Shown piece after piece: positions 17,286-30,124 of a stretch of DNA of 30,757 nucleotides (positions are counted from its first letter, which is position 1; each line of letters starts with the position of its first letter). The stretch is taken from the IMG/VR virus record IMGVR_UViG_3300035190_000518, positions 1-30,757 of that record. The stretch is one strand, 5' to 3'. The notes beneath the pieces were generated by a model. It did no database searches and was not told the DNA's origin. It saw nothing but the letters and a program-made list of their open reading frames with translations. Position numbers and translations under genes: made by a program. Source of the stretch: a virus.

Positions 17286-19205
17286 ATGAAATCACTTCCC
17301 ACGCTGTACCAATCTTTCATTCACCTTTCCCGCTATTCCCGTTGGCTTGAAGCCGAAGGGCGGCGTGAGTCATGGGAGGAAACCGTTGACCGCTATTTCC
17401 GCTTCTTTGATGAACACTTTGCGGAAAAGGGTGTAAAACTAAATAAGACTATACGCGATGAGTTGCGTGATGCAGTTTTAAATTTGCAAGTAATGCCTTC
17501 TATGCGCTCTCTCATGACCGCAGGAGAAGCACTGAAGCGTGACAACACGGCAGGATACAACTGCTCGTATGTTGCCGTAAACAAGGTTCGTGCCTTTGAT
17601 GAGATTCTGTATGTTCTCATGTGTGGCACAGGAGTCGGCTTTAGTGTAGAAAGGCAGTATGTTGAAAAACTTCCTACAATTGCTGAAGAGTTTACACAAA
17701 GCGATACGCTCATTGTGGTCAAAGACTCCAAAGAAGGTTGGGCAAAAGCCTACCGCGAGTTGGTGTCCCTACTTATTGGAGGTCAAATCCCCCGATGGGA
17801 CACCTCTAAAATTCGTCCTCTTGGTGCGCGTCTCAAAACTTTCGGTGGACGCGCAAGTGGACCGCAACCACTGGAAGACCTCTTCCGATTTACCGTCAGT
17901 ACTTTTAAGAAAAGTGCTGGCAGAAAACTCACATCTATCGAATGCCACGACATTATCTGTAAGATTGCGGAAATTGTCGTGGTCGGCGGAGTGCGTAGAT
18001 CTGCTCTTATCTCTCTCTCGAACCTCACCGATGAGCGAATGCGTGATGCTAAAGTGGGGCAGTGGTGGTTGGAAAACCCACAGCGAGCGTTAGCGAACAA
18101 TTCGGTTTCATACAAAGAGAAGCCAGAGATTGGCGTGTTCATGGAAGAGTGGCTATCACTCTACAAGTCCAAGAGCGGTGAACGCGGCATCTTTAATCGT
18201 CAGGCTGCACAGAAAACTGTGGAGAAACTTGGTGATCGCCGTGACCCTACCTACGAGTTCGGAACCAATCCATGTTCAGAAATTATTTTGCGTGACAAGG
18301 AGTTCTGTAATCTCAGTGAAGTCATTGTTCGTGCAGACGATACTCCCGAAACTCTAAAGCGCAAGATTCGTCTTGCCACCATTCTTGGCACATGGCAAGC
18401 CTCTCTCACGAATTTCCCGTACCTGTCAAGTGAGTGGAAGAAGAACTGCGAAGAAGAGTGCTTGCTTGGTGTTTCGCTCACAGGCATTCTTGACAACAAA
18501 CTCATGCGTGATCAGGGTGCTGAATTGGAAAGACTGCTTGCTGGTCTTCGTGCCACTGCTGTTGAAACCAACAAGGAGTGGGCAAAGAAGATTGGTATTA
18601 ATCCTGCTGCTGCGATTACTTGTGTGAAGCCTAGTGGAACGGTGTCTCAGTTAACTGATTCTGCAAGCGGTATTCACGCTCGTCACAACGAGTACTACAT
18701 TCGTACTGTTCGTGCAGATCGCAAGGATCCCATGTGTCAGTTTATGATTGACAAGGGATTCCCTGCTGAACCGTGTGCCATGCGCCCTGATCACACAATG
18801 GTGTTCTCGTTTCCGCAGAAGGCAGTGGGATCGGTTACGCGTACAGACTTGACTGCTATTGCTCATCTAGAGTTGTGGCTGACCTATCAGCGGCACTTCT
18901 GTGAACACAAGCCGTCCATTACCGTGACTGTCAAGGAGTACGAGTGGATGGCGGTGGGTGCGTGGGTGTACGATCACTTTGATGAAGTGTCAGGTGTGAG
19001 TTTCTTGCCCCACTCCGATCACTCCTATGTTCAGGCTCCGTATCAGGACTGCACCAAAGAGGAGTACGAAGCAGCAGCAGCAAAACTGCCCCTGTCTATT
19101 GATTGGAGCGAGTTGACTAAGTACGAAAAGGAAGACACTACCAAGGGCACACAAACCTTTGCGTGTAGTGCTGGCTCATGTGAAGTAGTAGATCTGACTA
19201 ATTAA
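17286..19205 (+). CDS. nrdJ: Adenosylcobalamin-dependent (class II) ribonucleotide reductase, monomeric type, 639 aa
   Basis: Reduces ribonucleotides to deoxyribonucleotides with a B12-derived radical, supplying dNTPs for phage replication. All class II landmarks can be read: C93 in GYNCSY (first redox cysteine), FGTNPCSEI with N328, radical C330 and E332, second redox cysteine C341 in FCNLSEV, and the C-terminal shuttle pair C627/C632 in ACSAGSCEVVDL. The 11-residue spacing from C330 to C341 equals that in the Lactobacillus leichmannii enzyme (C408-C419). The protein is about 100 residues shorter than that enzyme; about 50 are missing between C93 and C330, so allosteric control may differ. 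ATG follows AGGAG and the gene stands after a strong terminator, so it needs its own promoter. Confidence 0.93.
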   Translation: MKSLPTLYQSFIHLSRYSRWLEAEGRRESWEETVDRYFRFFDEHFAEKGVKLNKTIRDELRDAVLNLQVMPSMRSLMTAGEALKRDNTAGYNCSYVAVNKVRAFDEILYVLMCGTGVGFSVERQYVEKLPTIAEEFTQSDTLIVVKDSKEGWAKAYRELVSLLIGGQIPRWDTSKIRPLGARLKTFGGRASGPQPLEDLFRFTVSTFKKSAGRKLTSIECHDIICKIAEIVVVGGVRRSALISLSNLTDERMRDAKVGQWWLENPQRALANNSVSYKEKPEIGVFMEEWLSLYKSKSGERGIFNRQAAQKTVEKLGDRRDPTYEFGTNPCSEIILRDKEFCNLSEVIVRADDTPETLKRKIRLATILGTWQASLTNFPYLSSEWKKNCEEECLLGVSLTGILDNKLMRDQGAELERLLAGLRATAVETNKEWAKKIGINPAAAITCVKPSGTVSQLTDSASGIHARHNEYYIRTVRADRKDPMCQFMIDKGFPAEPCAMRPDHTMVFSFPQKAVGSVTRTDLTAIAHLELWLTYQRHFCEHKPSITVTVKEYEWMAVGAWVYDHFDEVSGVSFLPHSDHSYVQAPYQDCTKEEYEAAAAKLPLSIDWSELTKYEKEDTTKGTQTFACSAGSCEVVDLTN

Positions 19206-24776: not shown

Positions 24777-26111
24777 TTACCAACGCATCCCGTGCTGATC
24801 CAGTGTCTTCTTGATGGACTTTTGTCTGTCGATCACGCTTCTGGCTCCTGCGTTGGGATCCTGCTTTTTCACGGGCTTCTTGGCGGCTTCTTCCATTGAA
24901 GACTTGAGAGCCTTCTTGTGGAACCGCTTGCCCTTGCCGGTTTGATCGGCTTGCGACATTGTTGGATCAGGCTGCATGAGAGGAATGCCAGGCATCATTT
25001 CGGTGTACTCTTTGACCGACTTCTTCTTGTTGCGGAGCAAAGCAAAGTCGTGTGAGTCAAGTCGCTTGTTCTTGTTGACATCAAGTTTCTTCTGACCACC
25101 AACAAGTTCTTCCTTTACAGACTTCTTGGAGCGAAGCATCTTGAAGTCTTGTGAGTCAAGTCGCTTGTTCTTGTTGACATCAAGTTTCTTCTGACCACCA
25201 ACAAGTTCTTCCTTCACGGGCTTGCGCTTGCCCTTCACAATCTTGCCGCCGCGACCGTACAGTTTTTCAGACTCGTATTCCTTTGTGTCCTGCTTGATTA
25301 GACGGCGCACAGCAGTATCGTGCTTGTCTTCAAGTTTGCGTCCACGCTCCGCAGCCTTGCCGGTTTTGTTCATCTTGGCTTCGTAGCCGCGTTGAGCCTT
25401 GACATCGTGCCGCTGAATCTTGTGTTCCATGTCTCGCTGACGAGCAGGAGTCTGTGCCATCTCGTCAATGCTGTCGCCGTCAGTCTCCACGCCTTCTTCT
25501 GCAACAACAGGCTCGGTCTTGGGACCGAGTCTAGCCGTGACGCGATACAGCCCGTCTTCAGCAATTTCAATGCCAACTGTGAGGGCGAATTCTTTTAGCC
25601 CTGCGGTGGGGTTTGCCTTGCCGTTCATCACGACATTGCCGGTCACACTGTCAACACCGTCTACGCGACCAAACAAGGTCACAGTCAACGAAACAGTACC
25701 AGTGCCGCCGTCCTGCCACATATATGGAGTCCACGGAAAGTCTAGCATGAGCAGATTCAGGCGCGTCTTGATGCGGATGAACGCTTCATTGGGCGACTGA
25801 AAGGTGCTGCGGCTAATGGCGTTCAGCATGGCGTTGATCTGTGCCATGCGCTCGGGACCAAAGTTCACTGGTCCGTCTTCGGTGTTGATGCCACGATTGG
25901 GATAGCCCGTGAGGGTTTCCTTGTACTCGCTCTCGGTGAGAGTGTTACGGAAGTCTTTGAAACGCTTGTTCTCGTGTTGCATATGCTTTGCCTTTGAAAT
26001 TTCAATGGCAGCAAGTTGCTTCGCTGCCTTCTTCTTGGATGGATGTGTTCCCAATACCTTTGTGCCACTTTTGTCCGTGACTACGAATTTGCTGCCGTGC
26101 TTTTTAATCAT
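24777..26111 (-). CDS. Lysine-rich protein with duplicated EF-hand-like loops, 444 aa
   Basis: The N-terminus MIKKHGSKFVVTDKSGTKVL resembles a short motif found in many phage proteins (KKHG-K-VV-DKSGK-VLG-H-SKKKA--QL-AI). Residues about 60-205 form a folded-looking domain with TVSLTVTLFGRVDGVDSVTG; residues 225-444 are very basic and low in complexity. Two near-identical copies of VKEELVGGQKKLDVNKNKRL (about 299-320 and 332-353) carry calcium-loop-like D-x-N-x-N-x-R-x-D-x-x-D spacing. It starts 3 bases after the previous stop. Probably a virion or DNA-associated protein; no enzyme motif seen. Confidence 0.65.
   Translation of the reverse strand: MIKKHGSKFVVTDKSGTKVLGTHPSKKKAAKQLAAIEISKAKHMQHENKRFKDFRNTLTESEYKETLTGYPNRGINTEDGPVNFGPERMAQINAMLNAISRSTFQSPNEAFIRIKTRLNLLMLDFPWTPYMWQDGGTGTVSLTVTLFGRVDGVDSVTGNVVMNGKANPTAGLKEFALTVGIEIAEDGLYRVTARLGPKTEPVVAEEGVETDGDSIDEMAQTPARQRDMEHKIQRHDVKAQRGYEAKMNKTGKAAERGRKLEDKHDTAVRRLIKQDTKEYESEKLYGRGGKIVKGKRKPVKEELVGGQKKLDVNKNKRLDSQDFKMLRSKKSVKEELVGGQKKLDVNKNKRLDSHDFALLRNKKKSVKEYTEMMPGIPLMQPDPTMSQADQTGKGKRFHKKALKSSMEEAAKKPVKKQDPNAGARSVIDRQKSIKKTLDQHGMRW
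25051..25217 (-). repeat. Direct repeat, 68 bp, period 99 bp
   Basis: Segments 25051-25118 and 25150-25217 match over 68 bases with one visible mismatch (T/C near the end). The 99-base period is 33 codons, so the duplication keeps frame. It encodes the GGQKKLDVNKNKRLDS repeat. Confidence 0.92.
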
Positions 26112-26114
26112 GGT

Positions 26115-27113
26115 TCAGTAAGATGTGGTGTCGGAACGATAGTCTGCATCGGATGCTCTCTTGCTGCCGCTGCCAGACTTCTTGCGGCGATCCGCTGCCC
26201 ACGACATCTTGCCGCTCTTCTTATCTTGACGAGCCAGTGGATTGGTGGAGCCACGCGCAGGAGGAACAGGCTTCTTGATTTCCGCAGCGTGTGCTGCGTA
26301 ATCGCTCTTGGCTTTCTTGAGTTTGGCTTGAGCAGGGGAGCCTTCCCATGCTTCATCCAACTCTTCCGCAAACTTGAAGAACGACTTGCCTTCGCTCACG
26401 CTCTTCCAACTGCCGCCTTGTTCGTTGTACCACTTCACAGCCCAACCATTGGCGTAGGCTGAAGGGTACACATCAAACTTGGAACGCGCCTTGGACTTGG
26501 CTTGCGACCACAGTTGCGGATTTGTTGGCTTGTTCTTTTCAAGCAGGGTCTGTGCGTCTTCAACAAGAAAGAATTCCTGAAGTGTTTCCGCATTCGGAAC
26601 TTCAAACGATTCCTCAATGTCTTCCAATGGATTGCCCATTGTTTTCTTGAAAGCGTTGAACAGCACGGGTGAGCCAGTGATCTTCTTGACCATTGTGTCC
26701 ATCATGTCAATCATCATGTCGCGGTACACTTTGGACGCACCCATAGTCTTTGCGGTAGCCGTGGTGGGAGCCTCCAAGGCTCGGCGTGCAGCAACCACAT
26801 CCTTCTTCTTGACAAGCCCGGTGCGGAGCAGCGTCTTGGTGCGCTCCTTCTCTACATCCTCAATCACAGTGGCAGGCTCTTTTGCAAGGGTGGCACGCAT
26901 GGTGGTGTACAGGCTTTTGTTGTTCACAACCCGATCCACAACATCCACCATGATTTCCTGCATGAGAGTGCGGTACGCGGGATTCTTGAGTGCCTTGTCG
27001 GGATCAGCAAACAGAGTCATGGCACGGCGTACATTGTTTTTGGACACCAAGCCCATCCGTAGAAGGGTGTTTAGTTTAGACGAGATAGCGGAATTTTTGC
27101 CCATTGGGTCCAT
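26115..27113 (-). CDS. Duplicated-domain basic protein with YPSAYAN motif, 332 aa
   Basis: Residues 13-80 and 91-161 look like two copies of one helical domain: LNTLLRMGLVSKNNVRRAM ... RTLMQEIMVDVVDRVV ... MRATLAKEP against TKTLLRTGLVKKKDVVAARR ... RDMMIDMMDTMVKKI ... FKKTMGNP. Residues 194-236 hold KPTNPQLWSQAKSKARSKFD then VYPSAYANGWAVKWY and GGSW, a motif found in many phage proteins without an assigned function to my knowledge. The C-terminus is Lys/Ser-rich and probably disordered. ATG follows AGGAGACACAC, and CTAAATA lies 22 bases before the start. Confidence 0.68.
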   Translation of the reverse strand: MDPMGKNSAISSKLNTLLRMGLVSKNNVRRAMTLFADPDKALKNPAYRTLMQEIMVDVVDRVVNNKSLYTTMRATLAKEPATVIEDVEKERTKTLLRTGLVKKKDVVAARRALEAPTTATAKTMGASKVYRDMMIDMMDTMVKKITGSPVLFNAFKKTMGNPLEDIEESFEVPNAETLQEFFLVEDAQTLLEKNKPTNPQLWSQAKSKARSKFDVYPSAYANGWAVKWYNEQGGSWKSVSEGKSFFKFAEELDEAWEGSPAQAKLKKAKSDYAAHAAEIKKPVPPARGSTNPLARQDKKSGKMSWAADRRKKSGSGSKRASDADYRSDTTSY

Positions 27114-27133: not shown

Positions 27134-28183
27134 TTATTTAGATTTTTTAAGGTGGCTCGTCATGCGGGGAGGGTTACCTTTTCCGCTTCTTTGTGTATCA
27201 GGCTCCACCCGTCTTTTTTGAATTACTGCGCGTTTCCGCTCCTTGGGTGTCATTTCACCCACCGTTTCAGGAGTCTTGCTGCTTACTTTACGAGCAGGAC
27301 GGCACTTGGGGTACTTGCCACTGGATGTGTCTGCGCGACCACAGGGCGGATACTGCCCTGTCTTGGGGTCTTTCTTGCCGCCAATGTTCACCCATTTCTC
27401 TTTGAACCACCGCGCCAAGTCTTCATCAATCTTGCACGGGGGAGTGGGGAATATTTTATTGTGTTTGGAGAAGCCGCCAGTCTGCCCCGGCGTGTCGGAT
27501 CGCCGCTTGTACTTGTCGCTCTCCATGAGGCGTTGAGCAGCGGTGGCGTATATTTCTTTGTAGTCCACGCTTTCTTTGCGAAGTGTACGCATACCCTTCT
27601 TGAGATCGGAGAACAAAGACTTTACATCTGATGCGTTTGCACGGCGAGGCATTCCACTCTTAAAGGTAGCAAAATCATCTGCTGCCACAGAAGCACGAAG
27701 TTTGGACGCGCTCATGCCTTGCAGTCCACCTGCATCGGGATCGCGTTGCCCTGCGCTCACCACATTCAATGATTTAAGTTTGAGTGGTTCTTTTGTGGTG
27801 GGACTCATAAACTTTTTGAAAGTATCGTATTCGCCTGCGCGATCTTGCCCGCCCACCATGATGACATGATCGTATCCTTTTTTAGCCAACCAATACAGCA
27901 TATCCACAGGAGTCTTGATGGTGGCGTTGTCGATAAAGTTGGCTTCAGGAAAAAACTTCTTCAGGTAGTGAAACTTCTGTTTAGGAGTTAATGGATTTCT
28001 TTTAGGATCGTTGGTGCGACTGCTGAACATGGCGTGTTCTGCGCCGTGCGTCTTGGCAGTCTCCACCACTTTGTCAACGAGCAGTTGATGTCCGCTAGTA
28101 GGTGGCTGAAAGCGTCCGAATGCAACCACGATGGTTTTGCCGGGACGCGAAGTCTTAGATTTCTCTCCAACTTGTTTTGCCAC
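27134..28183 (-). CDS. Nucleotidylyltransferase (HIGH superfamily) with Cys-containing tail, 349 aa
   Basis: Residues 18-32, IVVAFGRFQPPTSGH, are the nucleotide-binding strand and (H/T)xGH motif (T29-S30-G31-H32) of cytidylyl-/adenylyltransferases; MSASKLR (157-163) matches the second signature of the fold (ISSTxxR type), and VGGQDR (110-115) sits where substrate is contacted. It would transfer a nucleotide from NTP; the substrate is unknown, with NMN- or pantetheine-phosphate-like substrates possible. Residues about 235-349 are an added basic region with FPTPPCKIDE, WFKEKWVNIGG, YPPCGR and YPKCRP. The start is GTG 28183 after a strong GGGAGGTGATC. Its stop overlaps the CTAAATA motif of the next gene. 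Confidence 0.8.
   Translation of the reverse strand: MAKQVGEKSKTSRPGKTIVVAFGRFQPPTSGHQLLVDKVVETAKTHGAEHAMFSSRTNDPKRNPLTPKQKFHYLKKFFPEANFIDNATIKTPVDMLYWLAKKGYDHVIMVGGQDRAGEYDTFKKFMSPTTKEPLKLKSLNVVSAGQRDPDAGGLQGMSASKLRASVAADDFATFKSGMPRRANASDVKSLFSDLKKGMRTLRKESVDYKEIYATAAQRLMESDKYKRRSDTPGQTGGFSKHNKIFPTPPCKIDEDLARWFKEKWVNIGGKKDPKTGQYPPCGRADTSSGKYPKCRPARKVSSKTPETVGEMTPKERKRAVIQKRRVEPDTQRSGKGNPPRMTSHLKKSK
27135..27141 (-). promoter_or_regulatory. Late-promoter-like motif CTAAATA (- strand)
   Basis: CTAAATA is formed by the last codons and stop of the nucleotidylyltransferase gene (TCT AAA TAA). It lies 22 bases before the ATG at 27113, with AGGAGA in between. Confidence 0.5.
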
Positions 28184-28225
28184 TTAGATCACCTCCCGAT
28201 ATGCACTAGAAACACCAACTGCTCG

Positions 28226-29434
28226 TTATTTTTTGCCCCAATTTTTCGGCACTGTGAAATTGCTGTGCGAAAAATCTAGGCGGTCTACTAGTTTCACTGC
28301 CGCATTGCTCATGCGATCAATGGCTACGAATCCTTCAGGTGCCGTGACACGGTAGCCTTTGCCGTCACGGATGAATGTTCCAATCTTACCCGACAAGGAC
28401 GCAAGTTTCTTTACCACAACCAGTTTGAGTTGTGCCAACTGATTATGTAGGGCAAACACCCGAGCAATCTGATTGCGATTACGCTTGATCCAATCCATTG
28501 ACGGTGTTGGTTTGGTCATCTTGGTTTTGCGTTTGGCTTGGGCTTTGGCTCCAAGGAAAGCAAGCATATCGTTTACATCTGCGTGTGAAGTCATTGTGCC
28601 TTGCGCCACAAGAGAATTCACATACATCTTGATTGCGTCTTTCACTCCATCATTTTTTGAAATTGCGTTCATGGTTATTTTTAATGATGATGCAGTGTCT
28701 TCAAGTCGCGCAATCACGGACTCAAGTTCTTTGCGATCATCCACCGAGAACAAACCACTGCCGTCTGCAATCCGCAGTGTGGCGTTGTCAAACCACACAT
28801 CTTTGGTGTTTCGCAGTCCGCTCAAGTCAGGATTAAACTTGGCGGTTGCAGTTGAGATGGTAGTGCCTTCGTATGCGGTGTGGAACACAATGCCTATCTT
28901 TGCGCCAGTGATGCGCTTGCCCAAATGACTGTTTGGCTCCACTGCGTAGGTAATAGTATTGGGCGTGAAGGTCAGCACGGACTTGCCGTCAATCTTGGTG
29001 CGGACAATAGTGCTGCTGTCAAACATGAGATCGCCTTGCAGAATGCCTGTGATGCCAAGTTTAGGCAAATACTTTAATGCAAGTTTGAGTTTCTCATTCA
29101 AACCCGGTGACGGGTGGTTTAGATCAATATCTGAATTCGTGAAGTTTAGTTTGGGTGTCACATTAAACACGCTCTTCGTGCCCACAAAGAACTTGCCACT
29201 AGACGGATCAATGCCACAAACGATGGCGGGTGCGCCATCCCATTTCACCGTGATTTCGTGACTGCTTGGAGCAGTGGCAGACAGTGAATCAGCAACACCA
29301 CGCACAGCAGCAACAGCAGATTTGAATCCAGAGTAGCCGTTGTTGAGGATTTCGTCCTCAAGATGCTCCAAATGGACATTCTTGCCACCGGAGGCTTTTA
29401 CTGCTTCTGTTAGGTGTTCCGTGAATCGTATCAA
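28226..29434 (-). CDS. Conserved phage protein with KxDG ligase-like motif, 402 aa, TTG start
   Basis: The N-terminus MIRFTEHLTEAVKASGGKNV, then HLEHLEDEILNNGYSG, and ITVKWDGAPAIVCGIDP with K64-W65-D66-G67, form a pattern I recognise from many marine T4-like phages as a family without assigned function. KWDG fits the nucleotidyl-acceptor motif I (KxDG) of DNA/RNA ligases and capping enzymes. GILQGDLMF (about 130-138), LTFTPNTITYAV (154-165) and AYEGTTIS (187-194) lie in the order expected for motifs III, IIIa and IV but match only loosely. TTG at 29434 is the start, with GGAGGAC before it. Adjacent to the nucleotidylyltransferase. Confidence 0.7.
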   Translation of the reverse strand: MIRFTEHLTEAVKASGGKNVHLEHLEDEILNNGYSGFKSAVAAVRGVADSLSATAPSSHEITVKWDGAPAIVCGIDPSSGKFFVGTKSVFNVTPKLNFTNSDIDLNHPSPGLNEKLKLALKYLPKLGITGILQGDLMFDSSTIVRTKIDGKSVLTFTPNTITYAVEPNSHLGKRITGAKIGIVFHTAYEGTTISTATAKFNPDLSGLRNTKDVWFDNATLRIADGSGLFSVDDRKELESVIARLEDTASSLKITMNAISKNDGVKDAIKMYVNSLVAQGTMTSHADVNDMLAFLGAKAQAKRKTKMTKPTPSMDWIKRNRNQIARVFALHNQLAQLKLVVVKKLASLSGKIGTFIRDGKGYRVTAPEGFVAIDRMSNAAVKLVDRLDFSHSNFTVPKNWGKK

Positions 29435-29452
29435 AGGTGTCCTCCGCTTCCG

Positions 29453-29459
29453 TATTTAG
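29453..29459 (-). promoter_or_regulatory. Late-promoter-like motif CTAAATA (- strand)
   Basis: CTAAATA overlaps the stop codon of the exonuclease gene (TCC TAA ATA) and lies 18 bases before the TTG start at 29434, with GGAGGA between. Confidence 0.5.
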
Positions 29460-30124
29460 GAAACTTGGACGGGCTGCTCCGCACGATAAGTCTGTATTGC
29501 TTCCACCAAATCAGGCACATAGTCCATTGGATCAGCGGTGAACACCTGACAGCCACCGTCCTCCACGCCAATCAGAATGGCAATATTTCGCAATTCCTGC
29601 CCAGTGAGATCTTGCCACATGAGCGCATACGCGGTAGCCTGCATGAAGTAGTCTTGAATCGCGTCCTCGGATTTTGGGTAATTGGATGACTTGAAGTCGA
29701 TGACAGACGGAACCCCATCGAATTCACCAATACAATCCGTCCGCCCCGCAAGACCCACCTTCTGTGACCACAGCGGCACTTCAATCGCGTAGATCGTCCC
29801 GATACGATCAATTTCTTGTTGCATCGACACAAATAAGTCCCTCTCTGTGGTTCCTTCCGACTCAGAGAGCGCAGTTGGCGTAAGATCGTTGCGGATATAG
29901 GTTTCGATGAGTGAATGTAGTTTTGTGCCACGGGATAGTACTCGTTTGGATTCTTCAGGATTGTCACGCCGCCACTTGGCAAAGAAAGCACGCTTCTTCC
30001 ATCCTGTCACGGTGGTGACAGACGGAAAAAGACCAGCAGGAGTCTTGTATCTCCTGCTGCCGTTGATTTCTATGGTTTCAATTTGTTCGTCTAGTGTCAC
30101 AAACGCATGATGAAAAGTTTTCAT
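29456..30124 (-). CDS. PD-(D/E)XK exonuclease, 222 aa
   Basis: A RecB/MGME1-like nuclease. Visible in order are FPSVTTVTGW (33-42, a helical motif common at the N-terminus of this family), RGTKLH (65-70), E115 in AIEVPLW, D130 in AGRTDCI, the core D143-x-K145 in VIDFKSS, and Q162 in MQATAYALMW. Together these give the metal-binding E/D...D...DxK site and the trailing QxxxY motif. The likely role is processing DNA ends in recombination or host DNA breakdown, consistent with the RuvC-like resolvase in the window. ATG 30124 lies 2 bases after the stop of the small upstream gene. No good Shine-Dalgarno sequence (AAAGAG only), suggesting coupling. Confidence 0.85.
   Translation of the reverse strand: MKTFHHAFVTLDEQIETIEINGSRRYKTPAGLFPSVTTVTGWKKRAFFAKWRRDNPEESKRVLSRGTKLHSLIETYIRNDLTPTALSESEGTTERDLFVSMQQEIDRIGTIYAIEVPLWSQKVGLAGRTDCIGEFDGVPSVIDFKSSNYPKSEDAIQDYFMQATAYALMWQDLTGQELRNIAILIGVEDGGCQVFTADPMDYVPDLVEAIQTYRAEQPVQVS

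Follow-up and report, generated by a model that had tools for sequence, protein, structure and literature searches.

A pair of neighboring genes in a virus genome fragment raises the question of whether a protein with a KxDG motif acts together with a HIGH-type nucleotidylyltransferase, on which substrate, and where in the infection. The window analyzed here is the whole 30,757-nucleotide (nt) stretch of the IMG/VR virus record IMGVR_UViG_3300035190_000518, a fragment of 30.8 kb. Both open reading frames (ORFs) were found where the original prediction, made from the sequence alone, had placed them on the minus strand, to which all coordinates of the two genes below refer. The gene of the 402-amino-acid (aa) candidate covalent nucleotidyltransferase spans 28226..29434 with a TTG start, and that of the 349-aa HIGH-type protein spans 27134..28183 with a GTG start. 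Each has a GGAGG-type ribosome-binding site (GGAGG at 29441..29445 and GGGAGG at 28192..28197, respectively). We lean toward the explanation that the 402-aa protein, a member of Pfam family DUF6267, is an RNA-ligase-like enzyme that is packaged in the phage head by means of a T4-type tag, injected, and working with its HIGH partner. The superfamily and the targeting device are both known; their combination was not found in the literature searched, and none of the papers found there names DUF6267.

The 402-aa protein had been treated as one of unknown function, and it is indeed filed as 'function unknown' under DUF6267 (E 9.3e-105) and phrog_455. DUF6267 was matched in 464 of 50,697 phage records (E 1e-5), and the plasmid records searched held no match. 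The original prediction proposed comparing a predicted structure with ligase and capping folds, and this comparison points to an RNA-ligase fold. The AlphaFold2 model, for which the window protein was aligned with 113 relatives found on viral and genome contigs (114 sequences in total), has a predicted local distance difference test (pLDDT) score of 88.5 and a predicted TM-score of 0.85, with only residues 1-16 below a pLDDT of 50. VIA-align was run over the 1000 best PDB chains from Foldseek, 996 of which aligned. Among the best 50 rows listed, 49 are RNA or DNA ligases (Z 5.6-8.9) and one is DnaK (Z 5.8). The top row is the Naegleria RNA ligase (Z 8.9, root-mean-square deviation 3.6, 182 residues), and other rows include TbREL1 (7.8), Trl1 (up to 7.7), T4 Rnl2 (7.5), T4 Rnl1 (7.3) and DNA ligases (5.6-6.8). 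A Z near 8 may arise by chance, and the fold is persuasive because nearly all rows belong to one superfamily and the motifs of that superfamily fall in order. A Foldseek search of a viral library gave 16 matches at E <0.001, apparently to phage proteins like this one (not all were checked individually), and a weak match to a Marseillevirus RNA ligase at rank 17 (E 0.0099).

Conservation was followed in alignments of 33 sequences, of the 114 used for the model, and of 14, the last joining the window protein to 13 distant members, among them short cyanophage forms without much of the helical region. The predicted motif I, K64-W-D-G (29234..29245), is present as claimed; K64, D66 and G67 are invariant in all three alignments, window protein included (33/33, 114/114 and 14/14), and the proposed check on K64 conservation thus came out in its favor. 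The residues invariant in 114/114 also include K87, Q133, D135, N159, Y163, E367, G368, V370 and K381, among others; the same residues and R385 are invariant in 14/14, and R385 is nearly so in the larger alignment. They make up a candidate motif Ia (T86-K87-S88, 29171..29179), motif III (Q133-G-D135, 29030..29038), a candidate motif IIIa (F156-TPNTIT-Y163, 28946..28969), motif IV (P366-EGFVA-371, 28322..28339) and motif V (K381-LVD-R385, 28280..28294). Motifs III and IIIa coincide with GDLMF and FTPNTITYAV, where the original prediction had loosely placed them. Its motif IV, EGTTIS (189-194), was rejected: position 189 can be E, T, R, K, S, V or H, and the short cyanophage forms have this stretch altered or gapped. 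The conserved PEGFVA(I) at 366-371 takes its place, and motif V had gone unnamed. The 14-residue spacing of E367 and K381 equals that of E312 and K326 in the titles of Naegleria ligase PDB entries, which we take to be motifs IV and V of that enzyme. In the model, a helical insert (residues ~231-345, 28400..28744) separates motifs IIIa and IV and is shortened in several cyanophage forms. The catalytic-type residues are kept in those forms and in sequences 27-43% identical to the window protein.

Several results weigh against a ligase-like enzyme. Ligase consensus has Glu in motif III and two Lys in motif V; in DUF6267 the invariant acidic residue of motif III is Asp (D135), and motif V has a single Lys (K-LVD-R), the second being replaced. 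Foldseek against the PDB returned nothing at E <0.001 for the 402-aa model, with carbonic anhydrase and acetyl-CoA carboxylase among its top ten rows (E 0.3-1.1). The hhalign comparisons with T4 Rnl1 (probability 1.2%, E 0.046) and T4 Rnl2 (probability 0.2%) were not significant, the sole Rnl1 match falling on motifs IV-V. Searches of PDB sequences with the protein and with the alignment profile gave weak matches alone, mainly to helical stretches. Taking model and motifs together, we are nonetheless confident that the 402-aa protein has a predicted ligase-type fold and active site, and its residue conservation makes catalytic activity very probable. The earlier assignment to covalent nucleotidyltransferases therefore stands for ligase-type fold and motifs and falls for capping enzymes: neither a capping enzyme nor a classical DNA ligase is likely, since no oligonucleotide-binding (OB) domain with motif VI follows motif V. 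Past K381 the protein has just 21 residues, in which the model shows one short helix, and most aligned homologues are alike. The exceptions are the fusion in S-PM2, in which a HIGH domain follows, and three DUF6267 ORFs that run on for ~250 residues at the C-terminus (L077 2986-4983, L078 and L080). Long open frames also lie upstream of the DUF6267 domain in L055, L056 and L068.

In ligases, a nucleophilic Lys takes up the nucleotide and other motif residues serve metal and phosphate. By this analogy, K64 would accept AMP from ATP or nicotinamide adenine dinucleotide (NAD+), D135 and E367 would serve metals, and K381 would serve phosphate. The nucleotide would then be passed to a nucleic-acid end, most likely in sealing broken RNA early in infection, a job that we propose tentatively and by analogy.

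DUF6267 and the neighboring HIGH-type adenylyltransferase are highly likely to form a functional pair. On the minus strand, the order of transcription is a PD-(D/E)XK exonuclease gene, the 402-aa ORF and, after 42 nt, the 349-aa ORF. Co-occurrence of the two genes across phages, which had been suggested as a check, is borne out: a HIGH protein (phrog_395 match) is present in 21 of 23 DUF6267 records (19 IMG/VR contigs of at least 49 kb and four reference phages, picked for length), and the two records without it are contigs of 66 and 72 kb that are possibly incomplete. Of 14 control genomes, 10 hold cellular relatives that phrog_395 picks up too, so the profile alone is not specific. Across 193 DUF6267 loci (three DUF6267 ORFs were left out before clustering, for length or strand), a HIGH gene lies within the short flanks in 113, and the two genes share a strand in 112/112 measured pairs. 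The phrog_455 profile itself spans both proteins, with the 402-aa protein at positions 15-342 and the HIGH protein at 419-616 of 764. Finally, the two are fused in a deletion mutant of S-PM2 (S-PM2d138; LN828717, L276), whose single 591-aa ORF holds DUF6267 at 3-401 and HIGH at 408-590; in S-PM2 NC_006820 (L194) the same gene appears as two ORFs. The genes adjoin in P-HM2 and S-SM1 and lie apart in S-CREM2. We suggest that the DUF6267 protein would act together with its HIGH neighbor.

The original prediction of the role of the protein holds only in part, as it overlooked a capsid-targeting-like tag at the N-terminus that shifts the probable site and time of action. Residues 1-10 read M-I-R-F-T-E-H-L-T-E (29405..29434), and this decapeptide belongs to the 402-aa protein because the GGAGG site sits 6 nt 5′ of the TTG start. 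T4 ipII and ipIII start with MKTYQEFIAE, and the window protein fits their register at F4, H7 (His for Phe), L8 and E10, with a gp21-type cut predicted after E10. According to a review (PMC9026906), the N-terminal 10 residues of IPIII are enough for targeting to the head; positions 4 and 7 are important for this step, positions 8 and 10 for processing, and gp21 cleaves after L/I-x-E. In the literature searched, capsid targeting and cyanophages came together only in that paper, in which 'cyanophage' occurs once, in a reference title.

The tag is widespread in the family. Non-cyanophage DUF6267 proteins mostly start M-x-x-F-x-x-[FYH]-[LI]-x-E, with a conserved KN.H a few residues later. Among 62 distinct T4-register decapeptides, whose letters are constrained by the search pattern itself, position 4 is F in 57 and Y in 5, position 7 is Y in 24, F in 24, H in 13 and L in 1, position 8 is L in 50 and I in 12, and position 10 is E in all 62. 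A relaxed pattern fits 157 of 188 usable DUF6267 ORFs, those cut at contig ends being excluded, and a stricter one fits 106 of 162 distinct upstream stretches, a few of these matches falling on a later stretch and not on the start. To place these counts against background, distinct plus-strand ORFs of the loci were compared at N-terminal and internal Met: the T4-register pattern occurs at 83/1510 N-terminal vs 4/7892 internal Met, and at 29/1218 vs 3/5045 once DUF6267 and HIGH genes are removed (Fisher p 4.9e-18, overstated as the counts include related sequences). In a T4 control (69 kb, 253 open frames) the pattern picks ipII and ipIII only. A looser pattern found 189 of 4076 locus ORFs, namely 126 DUF6267, 13 HIGH and 50 others, and these others include HAD-like proteins (DIDDTLF motif), a Zeta/AAA_33 kinase (L131) and adenylate kinases.

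The tag may sit on either partner. Within the clade of the window, DUF6267 carries it and HIGH does not. In Melnitz-3 it is on DUF6267, and HIGH has a form shorter by one residue (MKKFSEIIE). In S-SM1, S-RIM8, ACG-2014d and S-MbCM25 it is on HIGH alone, and in the genome contigs L178, L180 and L181 an untagged DUF6267 lies beside a visible HIGH protein with the tag or a 9-residue form (MRFLDFIKE in L180). Both genes are present at 108 loci, which give 83 distinct pairs. The automatic patterns scored 10 of these as having the tag on neither protein, and by eye each has a shorter, longer or farther-upstream variant (e.g., MISFAQLTE) on at least one partner. A rule that no pair lacks the tag altogether was nevertheless rejected, as it fails for P-HM2, MED4-213 and the S-PM2 fusion. 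If DUF6267 and HIGH form a complex, one tag per pair could conceivably suffice.

Evidence from virions bears on whether such a tag is used, and it comes from two papers. S-CREM2 virions contain 52 of 219 ORFs (PMC10665884 Table 3). Three annotated S-CREM2 proteins fit the T4 register, the SAM hydrolase gp6 (MKDFDSFLEE), the kinase gp14 (MKRFDAFLTE) and the HIGH-type cytidylyltransferase gp154 (MKNFSSFLTE), and 3/3 were detected in the virion (p 0.013, from a test that, like the other S-CREM2 tests, is post hoc and was devised once the pattern was known). The HIGH protein T4-GC190 of S-SM1, which starts MKKFSAFLNE, was detected in the virion, and T4-GC190 was undetected in S-PM2 virions (PMC3037559), consistent with the untagged S-PM2 fusion. 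As far as these sources extend, the tag tracks virion presence of HIGH proteins. Peptidase_S77, the gp21 type of prohead protease, is encoded in 13 of 23 DUF6267 records and in 4/4 complete reference phages; the window record is only a 30.8-kb fragment. Two tag-like stretches in other positions were also seen: the Cas9-like gp12 of S-CREM2 (L202 7704-10313), virion-detected according to the same table, has RFASFMAE near residue 20, and S-CRM01 128c has a similar internal form.

These observations suggest that DUF6267 is probably packaged in the phage of the window, judging from its N-terminal sequence. It would be made with MIRFTEHLTE, carried into the prohead and cut behind E10 by a protease of the gp21 type; we infer that the trimmed protein would be injected together with the DNA, as are T4 Alt and the internal proteins.

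Packaging has its own contrary evidence. T4 ipI and Alt fall outside the strict pattern, and the HIGH protein of the window has no tag. All cyanophage DUF6267 proteins examined are untagged (P-HM2, S-PM2, S-CAM9, MED4-213, S-RIM44, S-RIM8, S-SM1, ACG-2014d, S-H34, S-MbCM25 and S-CREM2), and the HIGH part is likewise untagged in P-HM2, MED4-213 and the S-PM2 fusion. The sole virion datum for DUF6267 itself is negative: the untagged gp87 of S-CREM2 is not among the 52 proteins of the table. The S-CREM2 association is also less complete under other definitions. With Leu allowed at position 4, 4/5 proteins are in the virion (p 0.012), adding gp13 (MKDLHSFLTE, detected) and the 55-aa gp175 (missed), and with the loose pattern 4/6 are (p 0.03). 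For proteins of at least 80 aa, Fisher's p was 0.12 with the loose pattern and 0.07 with any early L/I-x-E.

The alternative that survives best would keep the RNA-ligase-like fold and make DUF6267 an ordinary early or middle enzyme, with no packaging and a decapeptide that is coincidental or a structural leader. The untagged cyanophage forms, the absence of gp87 from the S-CREM2 virion list and the position of the cyanophage gene beside the replication genes gp41, MazG and uvsX all favor it. Even so, we find it unlikely, as the T4-register pattern far exceeds the internal-Met background and occurs on unrelated families, the T4 control picks ipII and ipIII only, and the pattern-bearing S-CREM2 proteins are all in the virion. 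At L178, L180 and L181, moreover, HIGH carries the tag or the 9-residue form where DUF6267 does not. Promoter timing is unusable here: the T4-type late promoter TATAAATA does not occur in the window, and ATAAATA is near expectation (5 vs 3.1 expected).

A second alternative turns on the HIGH partner. The 349-aa protein matches phrog_3041 and phrog_395 ('cytidyltransferase'), and the GRFQPPTSGH (28088-28117) and SASKLR (27695-27712) motifs reported for it are present and conserved: at least 98% of 107 aligned sequences have G23, R24, P27, P28, G31, H32, S158 and R163. What had been described as a Cys-containing basic tail is Pfam DUF5872 (residues 241-325, 27209..27463, CGR...YPKCRP, E 2.8e-12). 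In a model built from 7 sequences and reliable for about residues 16-204 alone (27572..28138), this part folds as a HIGH-type adenylyltransferase resembling PPAT and NMNAT: VIA-align places PPAT, NadD and NMNAT at Z 12.3-13.6, and Foldseek places NadD first (E 8.5e-5). The product could be NAD+ or another dinucleotide. The pair could then be centered on NAD+, with HIGH as a nicotinamide mononucleotide (NMN) adenylyltransferase and DUF6267 as an enzyme that uses or consumes NAD+, recycling NMN or countering NAD+-depleting defenses. The NadD/NMNAT and PPAT resemblance, weak family matches to nicotinamide-nucleotide adenylyltransferases, the DUF6267-HIGH fusion and an annotated NAD synthetase ~10 kb downstream of the pair in S-SM1 fit such a role. 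We nevertheless regard it as improbable, as PPAT and NMNAT rows score alike for the HIGH domain and Pfam recognized no LigA-type domain in DUF6267; the NCBIfam NMNAT models fell far under cut-off against the HIGH protein. That DUF6267 has lost catalysis and serves as a structural or nucleic-acid-binding head protein would suit its Asp in motif III, its single motif V Lys and the lack of a significant sequence match to T4 ligases, and is very hard to reconcile with K64, D66, G67, D135, E367 and K381 being invariant at 27-43% identity, as expected of an active site.

Other genes of the window deserve brief mention. Directly upstream of the 402-aa gene is the PD-(D/E)XK exonuclease gene (phrog_298, 29456..30124, minus strand). 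A gene cluster resembling it, by eye, is found at 59 of 193 loci and at position -1 in 49. Its MKTFHHAFV start was considered as a tag and rejected, as by eye it looks like part of its own fold. Downstream of the pair, a 332-aa basic protein (26115-27113, minus strand) has a weak DUF5872 match (E 0.0054), comparable with the tail of the HIGH protein, and a cluster resembling it by eye occurs near the DUF6267-HIGH pair at 54 of 193 loci. A 444-aa protein (24777-26111, minus strand) carries a tandem dockerin/EF-hand-like unit, VGGQKKLDVNKNKRLDSxDF (Dockerin_1 E 1.4e-5), with an N-terminal match to phage family phrog_3684, and a ribonucleotide reductase (17286-19205, plus strand; phrog_367, E 2.5e-186) has a Pfam match to a B12-dependent-type insertion domain.

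In relatives, the genes around the pair include possible end-processing enzymes, namely Zeta/AAA_33 kinases, HAD-like proteins and adenylate kinase, several of them tagged. A HAD-like cluster is present at 12 of 193 loci, and the one member scanned has a weak polynucleotide-kinase family match (E 3.7e-5). For the kinase gp129 of HTVC008M, the best family is phrog_2071 'ATPase', followed by polynucleotide kinase (E 8.5e-8). In some phages HIGH is fused to RimK ATP-grasp and Zn_protease domains, to a Zeta/AAA_33 kinase or to PAP2, and two HIGH proteins carry a weak, sub-threshold Pol-beta-like region. Two of these arrangements stand out in their own right: the unusual three-domain polypeptides of L099 (1734-3785) and L115 (5408-8548), with HIGH, a RimK-like ATP-grasp and 'Zn_protease' (PF05618), and the tagged (MRFKDFIKE) polypeptides of L161 (2512-4986) and L172 (7738-10623), with HIGH and a Pol-beta-like region that is sub-threshold in Pfam. 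Upstream of the latter two lies a tagged adenylate-kinase-like gene (ADK E 1.9e-37 in L161).

RNA end repair is tentatively favored because jumbo phages use similar sets in RNA repair, made up of ligase, kinase, HAD phosphatase and Pol-beta nucleotidyltransferase (PMC7824862). It is conceivable, though somewhat doubtful, that many marine and freshwater T4-type phages inject a head-borne end-repair kit of DUF6267 ligase, HIGH protein and accessory enzymes. These accessories would differ by lineage (tagged Zeta/AAA_33 kinases, adenylate kinase, HAD-type phosphatases, RimK-type ATP-grasp and Pol-beta-like domains). The kit would be addressed by one T4-type capsid-targeting sequence on either DUF6267 or its HIGH partner, and would reverse host cleavage of RNA (or DNA) ahead of phage gene expression.

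The recognized ligase-like active site gives DUF6267 a testable chemistry, and the shared head-targeting-like tag suggests a rule, based on sequence only, for predicting injected enzymes of marine phages. The tag may also explain why 'cytidylyltransferase' and kinase signals, in themselves puzzling, turn up in virion proteomes of cyanophages; contamination could not be ruled out by the authors of one of these studies (PMC10665884). Should the ligase be injected, repair of RNA or DNA could precede phage gene expression, which bears on host nuclease defenses.

Among known systems, the RNA ligases (Naegleria Rnl, TbREL1, the Trl1 ligase domain, T4 Rnl1 and Rnl2) are like DUF6267 in predicted core fold, in the order of the candidate motifs I, Ia, III, IIIa, IV and V and in the IV-V spacing. 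DUF6267 differs from them in the Asp of motif III, the one Lys of motif V, the helical insert of ~115 residues between IIIa and IV and the absence of a C-terminal domain, and from T4 Rnl1 and Rnl2 also in having no significant sequence-profile match. T4 itself gave no DUF6267 match. The likeness to T4 ipII and ipIII lies in the decapeptide (F/Y at 4, F/Y/H at 7, L/I at 8 and E at 10), and relatives of DUF6267 likewise occur with a gp21-type protease; the T4 internal proteins and Alt differ in that the DUF6267 cargo is a predicted ligase-like enzyme, with ipI and Alt outside the strict pattern. The cyanophage 'cytidyltransferase' T4-GC190, found in S-SM1 and S-CREM2 virions (PMC3037559 and PMC10665884), is a homologue of the 349-aa protein and adjoins DUF6267 (T4-GC71) in P-HM2 and S-SM1; in the window, by comparison, HIGH is untagged and its DUF6267 partner is tagged. 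The jumbo-phage RNA-repair sets (Rnl1/Rnl2, polynucleotide kinase, HAD phosphatase and RlaP; PMC7824862) resemble the loci at which kinases and HAD-like proteins lie near DUF6267, and the weak Pol-beta-like match of two HIGH proteins is a further likeness. The RNA-repair section of that paper does not mention DUF6267, and several members of DUF6267 loci carry the head-targeting-like tag. Polyvalent proteins of phages (PMC5512222) are presumed to enter the head and to be injected, and they bring together many enzyme domains; some HIGH proteins are multi-domain as well. Unlike polyvalent proteins, DUF6267 is mostly single-domain, and its targeting resembles the T4 capsid-targeting sequence.

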